64,000 nucleotides of DNA from Chloroflexi bacterium CSP1-4 (lineage in GTDB: Bacteria; Chloroflexota; Limnocylindria; Limnocylindrales; CSP1-4), in NCBI GenBank assembly GCA_001443375.1, contig LDXM01000007.1, positions 41,856 to 105,855 on the forward strand. Reading direction: 5' to 3'. A program made the translations under genes and the position numbers. Shown here piece by piece: positions 43,402 through 45,990 of the stretch (the stretch's first letter is position 1; each line of letters begins with the position of its first letter). The notes beneath the pieces were generated by a model. It was not told the origin of the DNA and made no database searches. It saw only the letters and a program-made list of their open reading frames with translations.

Positions 43402-45990
43402 ATGTCAGTCACACTCACCACGGAGCTCGGTGGTCGCACGCTGACCATCGAGACAGGCAAGCTCGCCCGGCTGGCGGGCGGCTCGGTCACCGTCCGTTAC
43501 GGTGACACGTTCGTGCTCGGCACGGCCAACCGCTCGGAGCCCCGCCCGGGCCTCGACTTCTTCCCGCTCACGATCGACTTCGAGGAGCGGATGTACGCCG
43601 CGGGCAAGATCCCGGGCGGCTTCATCAAGCGCGAGTCGCGCCCCTCGGAAGCGGCCATCCTCGCCGCCCGCCTCACCGACCGGCCCATCCGGCCGCTGTT
43701 CCCGGCGGGCTACAAGGACGACGTGCAGGTCGTACTCACGGTCCTCTCCACCGACCAGGAGAACGACCCCGACATCATCGGCACCATCGCCGCCTCGGCC
43801 GCGCTGACGATCAGCGAGATCCCCTTCCAGGGTCCCATCGGCGCCGTGCGCATCGGCCGCATCGACGGTGAGTTCGTCGTCAACCCGACCATCAGCCAGC
43901 TGGTGGACTCGGAGCTCGACCTGATCGTCTCCGGCACGCGCGACGCGATCATGATGGTCGAGGCGGGCGCCAGGCTCCTCCCCGAGGACGTCATGGCCGA
44001 CGCGATCCAGTTCGGCCATCGCGCCCTGCAGCCGCTCATCGACATCCAGGAGGAGCTCCAGAAGCAAGTCGGCAAGGCCAAGCGCCTGCCCTTCCTGGAG
44101 GCCGGCACCGGTTCGGTCCTCGACTTCGTCAAGGCCGCCGAGGCGGGCGCGGAGTTCGTCGTGGTCGACGTCGAGACGACGGGCACGGATCCCAGGATGG
44201 CCGATCTCGTCGAGATCGCCGCGGTCAAGGTCAAGGGCGGCAAGATCGTCGACCGCTGGTCGAGCCTGGTCAAGCCGAGCCGGACGATCGTGGGCAACCA
44301 GATGCACGGCATCACGGACAAGGACGTCGCCAAGGCGCCCTCCGCGGCCGACGCGGCGCGCCAGTGCATGGCCTTCATCGGTGACGCCCTCGTGGTCGGT
44401 CACTCGGTGGGCTTCGATCTCGGCTTCGTCGAGGAGGCCCTCGGGGACGGCACGCGCTTCGACTCCGGCCGCCACCTCGACACGCTCGTCATCGCCCGCG
44501 ATGGCTATCCGGACCTGGAGAATTACCGGCTCGAGACGCTCTCGCGCTACTTCGGTGTGGAGCTCGCGCAGAACCATCGCGCGCTGCCGGATGCCGAGGC
44601 GACGGCCAACCTGCTGATCTGGTTCGCGGGCGACCTCCCCGGCCGCCTGGCGCGGCTGCGCGAGTCGATCGCGGACGCGGTGCGTGCCAACCGCAGCGGT
44701 GGTGACCCCAAGGCGCTGCTGGAGGCGGCGCGCCGCGAGGCGCGCGTGAGCAAGAGCCTCTTCGGGCTCGTGCACAAGAAGACCGTCCGGCAGCTCGTCC
44801 TCGACGAGGGCATCCGGATGGACGGCCGCGGCGTAACGGAGATCCGCCCCATCAGCGTCGAGGTCGGTCTGGTCCCGCGCGCGCACGGCTCGGGCCTCTT
44901 CACGCGGGGCGAGACCCAGGCACTGACCGTGGCCACGCTCGGATCGTCCTCCGACGTCCAGCGCATCGACACGATCAGCCCGAAGACCGAGAAGCGCTAC
45001 CTCCACCACTACAACATGCCGCCCTACAGCACGGGCGAGAACAAGATGATGCGCGGCCCCGGCCGGCGCGAGATCGGCCACGGCAACCTCGCCGAGCGGG
45101 CGCTCCTGCCGGTCCTGCCCAGCCACGAGGACTTCCCCTACGTCATCCGCCTCGTCAGCGAGTGCGTGACCTCCAATGGGTCCACATCGATGGCCTCCAC
45201 GTGCGGCTCGACCCTCGCCCTCATGGACGCGGGCGTGCCCATCAAGGCGCCCGTAGCGGGCGCGGCGATGGGCCTCATCAGCGAGCCGGACGGCCGGTTC
45301 GCGGTCCTCACCGACATCCTGGGCAAGGAAGACGCCTTCGGGGACATGGACTTCAAGGTGACCGGCACGCGCGACGGCATCACGGCCCTGCAGATGGACA
45401 TCAAGGTCCAGGGCATCACCGAGGCGATCATCCGCGACGGCCTGAAGCAGGCCCACGCGGCGCGCCTCACCATCCTCGACAAGATGGCCGAGGTGCTCCC
45501 CGAGGCCCGCGCCGCCATGAGCGACTTCGCGCCGCGCATCATCACCATCAAGATCAACCCCGAGAAGATCCGCGAGATCATCGGCAAGGGCGGTTCCATG
45601 ATCCGCAAGATCCAGGAAGAGACCGGCACCGAGATCAACGTCGAGGACGACGGGACGGTCGAGATCGCCGCGGTGAGCGGCGAGAACTCGCGCAAGGCGA
45701 TCCAGTGGATCGAGAGCCTGACGCGCGAGGTCGAGGTCGGTTCGCTCTACCTGGGCAAGGTGACCCGGATCATGGGCTTCGGCGCCTTCGTCGAGATCCT
45801 GCCGGGCAAGGAGGGCCTCGTGCGCATCGGCGAACTCGCCGACTACCACGTGCCGAGCGTCGAGGACGTCGTGTCCGTCGGCGACGAGGTCATGGTCGTC
45901 GTCACCGAGGTCGATCGCCAGGGTCGCATCAACCTCTCGCGCAAGGCCGCCATGCAGCGCCACCTGGCGCGCGAGACCACCCCGGCCTGA
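43402..45990 (+). CDS. pnp: Polynucleotide phosphorylase with inserted DEDDh 3'-5' exonuclease domain
   Basis: PNPase degrades RNA 3' to 5' by phosphorolysis. The 862 residues exceed the usual about 700. Order: RNase PH-like core 1 (about 1-215); an extra DnaQ-like exonuclease (about 248-415) with D256 and E258 in VVVDVETTG, D339 in GHSVGFDLGF, and H392 and D397 in NHRALPD, a complete DEDDh set; the helical domain (about 415-468); core 2 (about 470-700) with GSGLFTRGE, HHYNMPPYSTGE and the phosphorolytic residues D644, D650 and K652; KH domain (EIIGKGG, 725-731); and S1 domain (about 780-850). ATG 43402 follows TGGAGG. No stop or frame change occurs at the insert edges, so it is one continuous fusion protein. 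Confidence 0.97.
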   Translation: MSVTLTTELGGRTLTIETGKLARLAGGSVTVRYGDTFVLGTANRSEPRPGLDFFPLTIDFEERMYAAGKIPGGFIKRESRPSEAAILAARLTDRPIRPLFPAGYKDDVQVVLTVLSTDQENDPDIIGTIAASAALTISEIPFQGPIGAVRIGRIDGEFVVNPTISQLVDSELDLIVSGTRDAIMMVEAGARLLPEDVMADAIQFGHRALQPLIDIQEELQKQVGKAKRLPFLEAGTGSVLDFVKAAEAGAEFVVVDVETTGTDPRMADLVEIAAVKVKGGKIVDRWSSLVKPSRTIVGNQMHGITDKDVAKAPSAADAARQCMAFIGDALVVGHSVGFDLGFVEEALGDGTRFDSGRHLDTLVIARDGYPDLENYRLETLSRYFGVELAQNHRALPDAEATANLLIWFAGDLPGRLARLRESIADAVRANRSGGDPKALLEAARREARVSKSLFGLVHKKTVRQLVLDEGIRMDGRGVTEIRPISVEVGLVPRAHGSGLFTRGETQALTVATLGSSSDVQRIDTISPKTEKRYLHHYNMPPYSTGENKMMRGPGRREIGHGNLAERALLPVLPSHEDFPYVIRLVSECVTSNGSTSMASTCGSTLALMDAGVPIKAPVAGAAMGLISEPDGRFAVLTDILGKEDAFGDMDFKVTGTRDGITALQMDIKVQGITEAIIRDGLKQAHAARLTILDKMAEVLPEARAAMSDFAPRIITIKINPEKIREIIGKGGSMIRKIQEETGTEINVEDDGTVEIAAVSGENSRKAIQWIESLTREVEVGSLYLGKVTRIMGFGAFVEILPGKEGLVRIGELADYHVPSVEDVVSVGDEVMVVVTEVDRQGRINLSRKAAMQRHLARETTPA

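Follow-up and report, generated by a model that had tools for sequence, protein, structure and literature searches.

In a 64,000-nucleotide stretch of the genome of Chloroflexi bacterium CSP1-4 (contig LDXM01000007.1, positions 41,856 to 105,855 of the forward strand; hereafter the window), the pnp gene encodes a polynucleotide phosphorylase (PNPase) with a complete DEDDh exonuclease domain inserted in its helical linker, and the same arrangement is found across three related families of the class Limnocylindria. Few RNA-decay enzymes are as conserved or as well studied as PNPase, which is usually about 700 residues long. The frame here (43402..45990, plus strand, as are all features given below) is open over 862 codons, as a preliminary description of this DNA had it, and matches the PNPase model TIGR03591 with 958.5 bits (NCBIfam cut-off 525.05). 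With somewhat better than even confidence, we read the protein from its sequence as one that would trim 3' ends by two chemistries: the exonuclease, captured once and replacing a lost ExoDinG (a DnaQ-type exonuclease joined to an XPD-like helicase), would hydrolyze ends on which the phosphorolytic ring works poorly.

Profile searches with Pfam found two RNase_PH, two RNase_PH_C, one KH_1 and one S1 match, so that both RNase PH cores, KH and S1 are present in the canonical PNPase order, plus RNase_T (PF00929) between the cores. The first RNase PH-like core comprises about residues 1-208 (43402..44025; Pfam RNase_PH/RNase_PH_C and structure model), and the first helices of the linker domain are at residues 195-223 (43984..44070; model and alignment). 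The PF00929 match spans the whole profile (1-164 of 164) and residues 253-405 of the inserted domain (residues 250-410, 44149..44631), with a whole-protein score of 95.8 bits against a cut-off of 24. The remainder of the helical domain (residues 411-470, 44632..44811) is diverged, the linker profile PF03726 matching below its cut-off and over positions 53-80 of 81 only. It is followed by the second, phosphorolytic core (44812..45501; profile matches) and the KH (45535..45714) and S1 (45730..45945) domains, both identified by Pfam. In the structure model helices are kept before and after the insert, and the helical residues that flank it are diverged. Aligned with unfused PNPases of sister families, the extra segment starts after the first linker helices and stops before the remaining ones; the insert is thus within the helical domain and not, as first described, between the first core and that domain. 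The earlier interpretation is partly supported: it was right about a complete DEDDh domain inserted in an otherwise intact PNPase, while activity of the exonuclease, its place beside the RNA channel and a switch with phosphate stay predictions. Among the best 120 matches, fused proteins are 858-878 residues long.

To assess conservation we used 58 fused loci less the partial L152, L154 and L157, that is, 55 loci, which gave 47 distinct proteins once identical ones were merged (another count dropped L066 and L084, and L056, with its broken frame, was placed with the unfused rows). The full DEDDh set that had been claimed is where it was said to be: D256 and E258 in a DxE motif (44167..44175), D339 (44416..44418), and H392 to D397 in an HxxxxD motif (44575..44592). 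Conservation of these residues among homologues, on which the preliminary description had staked its claim, was found, with the first four invariant in 47 of 47 proteins and D397 present in 46; invariant columns make up 22 of 159 in the exonuclease as a whole. The species represented by L016 and L049, with His at 397, may be a natural variant with a weak exonuclease. The phosphorolytic site also proved intact, along with KH and S1: D644, D650 and K652 (45331..45357) are kept in 46 of 47 fused proteins, the exception (L022) having a frame that was read without the motif, and in 72 of 73 unfused rows, with one gap. From the shared motif, we take these residues to correspond to E. coli D486, D492 and K494. 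In E. coli PNPase, D486, D492 and K494 bind Mn2+ (PMC2723993, excerpt).

The model of the 862-residue monomer has a predicted local distance difference test score (pLDDT) of 88.7, and the exonuclease domain alone 93.2. Structure comparison of the model gives this domain a DnaQ-like fold, the nearest folds being the DinG, PolC, epsilon and ExoX exonucleases. Its last helix continues into the linker as a single helix (394-432), and the exonuclease is therefore predicted to be rigidly coupled to the linker. We also considered whether the aperture loop was unusual, but it is ordinary, as unfused PNPases also commonly have the Phe-Ile pair in this channel loop.

The distribution of the fusion was surveyed with a query of flank, insert and flank (321 residues) against 177 genomes of the class Limnocylindria. 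One-piece matches across both junctions were obtained in 115 genomes: 86 in the window's own family (f1), 15 in f2 and 14 in f3. Partial matches in another 11 (7 f1, 2 f2, 2 f3) appear from their short frames or contig positions to be cut or frameshifted genes; in G397 the match is confined to the sequence following the insert. In 28 genomes (27 f4, 1 f5) the query gave two or three matches per genome, all weak, with a best expect value (E) of 3e-21. The PNPase model, applied to eight of these genomes (7 f4, 1 f5), gave a single unbroken match in a frame of 747-814 residues in seven, while the gene of the eighth (G163) is split between contigs yet unbroken across the linker; PNPase in the sister families f4 and f5 is unfused. 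The query had no match in the remaining 23 genomes of the class (14 f1, 2 f2, 1 f4, 3 f3, plus G091, which is f3, and two that are probably f3). In a phylum sample of 301 Chloroflexota genomes, 41 of them in the class, none of the 260 outside it gave a fusion-like score, the best E there being 1.3e-29 and that of whole fused matches at least as good as 1.3e-78; for both surveys the genome tables give the best E per matching genome.

A wider search over 84,980 species genomes matched at least 591 stretches, with at least 586 relatives among them, and 26 of the best 80 of these relatives are fused (L032-L057, of which L056 is broken over frames and L053 starts inside the gene), the insert being encoded in 25 named loci. 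An independent, distant fusion may exist outside Chloroflexota, a question on which only the best 80 of the 586 relatives bear. In databases, many of the fused proteins are listed as "DNA polymerase III epsilon subunit family exonuclease," and their identity as PNPases is thereby masked. The contig of L045 is titled Thermoflexus hugenholtzii, probably wrongly, as its protein is the same as that of G256 (f2); L054, on a contig titled Steroidobacteraceae, groups with f3 in the exonuclease tree, and the broken frames of L056, from the KatS3mg065 assembly, are probably a sequencing error. The fusion is kept in f2 genomes of about 1 Mb. The class has been divided into four clades, P2-11E branching before QHBO01, and QHBO01 before the sisters CSP1-4 and the small-genome Limnocylindraceae (PMC13212565, excerpt). 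We infer that f1 is CSP1-4, f2 Limnocylindraceae, f3 QHBO01 and f4 P2-11E, which would place the insertion on the stem after P2-11E.

Both trees that we built support one origin of the fusion. The exonuclease tree has 98 domains, taken from 118 rows by thinning the fused f1 rows from 34 to 14; the 118 came from 145 candidates (dropped were 27 P rows, near-copies, frameshifted or chimeric P0181 and P0170). The fused domains form a single clade with support of 100/98. In a quick tree of PNPase cores with the insert removed, the fused proteins are again one clade (Shimodaira-Hasegawa-like approximate likelihood ratio test, SH-aLRT, 100), with f3 beside f1 plus f2; the clade uniting fused and f4/f5 cores has a support of 79, which is not decisive. 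The fused exonucleases sit outside the starred DinG clade, and a derivation from DinG is not supported by this placement, although an approximately unbiased (AU) test did not reject a joint clade of the fused and class DinG exonuclease domains (p 0.23). A stand-alone exonuclease gene beside pnp was considered and rejected from a reading of 24 of 120 listed short proteins. Visual inspection assigned 17 of the 24 to the fused gene as fragments, which start in or just before the insert or leave the frame, at differing places; one (P0170) is seemingly chimeric, and six are true stand-alone exonucleases, 39-48% identical.

The distribution of DinG is nearly the reverse of that of the fusion. The helicase part of DinG (PF13307) is found in 28 of 29 f4/f5 genomes and in 2 of 148 f1-f3 genomes, a split that relies on the probable f3 family of two unlisted genomes, and a profile search did not find it in the window's genome. 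Each of the seven f4/f5 DinG genes inspected has the exonuclease. The two f1-f3 exceptions score 83 and 78 bits, as compared to 140-150 bits; these weaker matches (G361:C161 and G200:C27, both f1) are in frames of 717 and 2009 residues and are probably not ExoDinG. The pattern suggests that, across one split within the class, ExoDinG and the exonuclease-PNPase take each other's place. A profile search of the window's genome, which is 92% complete, found no second PF00929 match, and exactly one match is present in 18 of the 23 f1 genomes of the phylum sample.

For the wider nuclease repertoire, we sampled 24 genomes, 17 of the fused lineage and seven of f4/f5. None of the 24 has an RNB (RNase II/R) match, where the control was positive in 11 of 14 genomes, and PF01612 (RNase D, PolA-type exonuclease) has no match in the 17 fused-lineage genomes and weak matches in four of the seven f4/f5 genomes. 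The set of hydrolytic 3'-5' exoribonucleases in the sampled Limnocylindria seems unusually poor. The DnaE of the window's genome (L178) keeps the metal-ligand motifs of the PHP domain, so that the fused exonuclease is probably not needed as a substitute proofreader. A second DnaE-like polymerase (G000:C26:18753-22362, with f1 relatives) has long frames, about 1340-1585 residues in several, with broken TIGR00594 matches; these frames may hold inserts, and in the window's genome the gene is split over two frames.

Within the window, pnp is preceded by rpsO, encoding ribosomal protein S15 (43005..43280, start codon approximate; PF00312, 122 bits). An rpsO motif occurs within 800 bases upstream of pnp in 23 of 25 scanned named loci (of 26, as L053 starts inside the gene). 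Also nearby are an NrnA-like DHH/DHHA1 phosphoesterase (39976..41016; 59 bits by the NrnA model, below the cut-off of 350) and RNase J (47905..49590; TIGR00649, 602.8 bits, cut-off 400).

As to the function of the fused exonuclease, its substrate and its division of labor with the ring, we infer the following. A single capture, on the stem leading to the three fused families, would have brought in the DEDDh domain, which would have taken over the job of the lost ExoDinG. The KH and S1 domains would deliver single-stranded 3' ends to a ring that degrades them with phosphate and releases nucleoside diphosphates (NDPs), while ends that are structured, stalled or met at low phosphate would be hydrolyzed by the DEDDh domain, releasing nucleoside monophosphates (NMPs). 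RNA is the likely main substrate, DNA being a serious rival. Listeria DinG is reported to act as a 3'-5' exoribonuclease in the removal of unprocessed rRNA, for which it needs its DEDD residues but not its helicase ATP motif (PMC12774634, excerpt); S. aureus DinG is cited as active on single-stranded DNA and RNA, and B. subtilis DinG is reported to cleave single-stranded DNA and RNA-DNA hybrids but not single-stranded RNA (both PMC12525004, excerpt); and E. coli PNPase is involved in recombination and DNA repair (PMC5379764, excerpt). These DinG activities, together with the DNA-repair role of PNPase, lead us to favor a takeover by PNPase of the 3'-end quality control of ExoDinG.

Several observations weigh against this reading, among them the inactivity of B. 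subtilis DinG on single-stranded RNA and the preference of Listeria DinG for DNA over RNA oligonucleotides (PMC12774634, excerpt). The nearest folds are mostly DNA exonucleases, and the position of the fused domains outside the DinG clade means that capture from DinG is not supported. D397 is replaced by His in one species (L016, the same as L049). The median pairwise ratio of nonsynonymous to synonymous substitution rates (dN/dS) is 0.46 for the exonuclease, with a highest value of 1.15, against 0.19-0.22 for the cores and KH/S1 and 0.58 for the linker (656 saturation-filtered, non-independent pairs of 39 genes, with synonymous sites partly saturated), and so the exonuclease is under weaker constraint than the cores. 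PF00929 matches a second time in five of the 23 f1 genomes. The lack of a YhaM match in all 24 sampled genomes comes from a model over its cut-off in only 1 of 14 control genomes, a weak control; the absence of RNB and YhaM is common to f4/f5 and cannot alone explain the fusion, and with genomes that are incomplete drafts each absence is weak alone. Finally, the fusion and the loss of DinG, lying on one split of the tree, are one event and not statistical evidence.

The rival that we take most seriously, unlikely as we judge it to be, is that the insert is mainly a DNA exonuclease and PNPase a platform that would bring a DinG/PolC-type 3'-5' exonuclease to single-stranded DNA ends in repair or fork processing. 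It draws on the nearest structures (DinG, PolC, epsilon, ExoX), on the part of E. coli PNPase in recombination and repair, on the B. subtilis DinG that degrades single-stranded DNA and not single-stranded RNA, and on the near-absence of DinG from the fused lineage; against it, the domain belongs to an RNA-decay enzyme whose gene lies beside rpsO and close to the RNase J gene, RNA is also among the substrates ascribed to S. aureus DinG, and a DnaE that keeps the PHP ligand motifs probably covers proofreading. We consider it distinctly improbable that the insert hydrolyzes little or nothing and serves as a spacer, structural or regulatory, that gates the side pore of the ring and binds nucleic acid or a partner, for example RNase J. 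The helical domain does form part of the side pore leading to the active site (PMC2723993, excerpt), and linker and exonuclease evolve faster than the cores, but a spacer would not need four catalytic residues invariant in 47 distinct proteins and a fifth kept in 46. An assembly or binning artefact, against which the preliminary description had cautioned, or a decaying insertion, has practically no probability left. Judging by their titles, the named fused loci come from metagenome bins, and frameshifted pieces exist, but the junctions are in one piece in 115 genomes, 25 named loci carry the insert, the catalytic residues are conserved, and the pieces begin or leave the frame at differing places; the census already refutes the artefact reading, and both chance and a local assembly chimera were rejected on the one-piece junctions and the named loci.

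If both sites work, the two-chemistry trimmer would combine phosphorolysis (yielding NDPs and saving energy) and hydrolysis (yielding NMPs without phosphate) on the same substrate in one protein, a clean system for asking why cells keep both chemistries. In a lineage seemingly without the usual hydrolytic 3'-5' exoribonucleases, the fusion would show RNA 3'-end quality control rebuilt after gene loss, genomes of about 1 Mb included. We found no account of a second nuclease inside PNPase in the open-access literature searched, and the searched portions of two papers on Limnocylindria (PMC13212565 and PMC10608941) do not mention PNPase.

Set against bacterial PNPase of the usual kind (TIGR03591, as in E. 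coli and C. crescentus), the protein is longer by about 165 residues, which make up an entire DEDDh exonuclease within the helical linker. The carrier of the exonuclease is a helicase in ExoDinG and PNPase here, and the two are nearly exclusive within the class. The exonuclease domains of PolC and DNA polymerase III epsilon are alike in DEDDh fold and residues, but they are replicative proofreaders, whereas the exonuclease-PNPase contains no polymerase. RNase T and oligoribonuclease (Orn) are stand-alone enzymes; Orn-like rows branch far from the fused domains, and Orn-like genes, as named by motif, occur in three of 18 class genomes examined, all three f4. The eukaryotic exosome with Rrp6 also joins an RNase PH-type ring to a DEDD hydrolase, as separate subunits, with a DEDDy hydrolase and a ring that is inactive in most eukaryotes. 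Tentatively, and at a little below even confidence, the fused protein may be a one-polypeptide bacterial counterpart: a phosphorolytic RNase PH ring that has three DEDDh hydrolases built in, would replace ExoDinG and, with RNase II/R, RNase D and YhaM missing, would serve in their place as the lineage's hydrolytic RNA 3'-end quality controller, switching chemistry by phosphate or RNA structure. It resembles the exosome and Rrp6 in combining an RNase PH-type ring with a DEDD hydrolase, and differs from them in being a single polypeptide, of the DEDDh type, with both residue sets intact.
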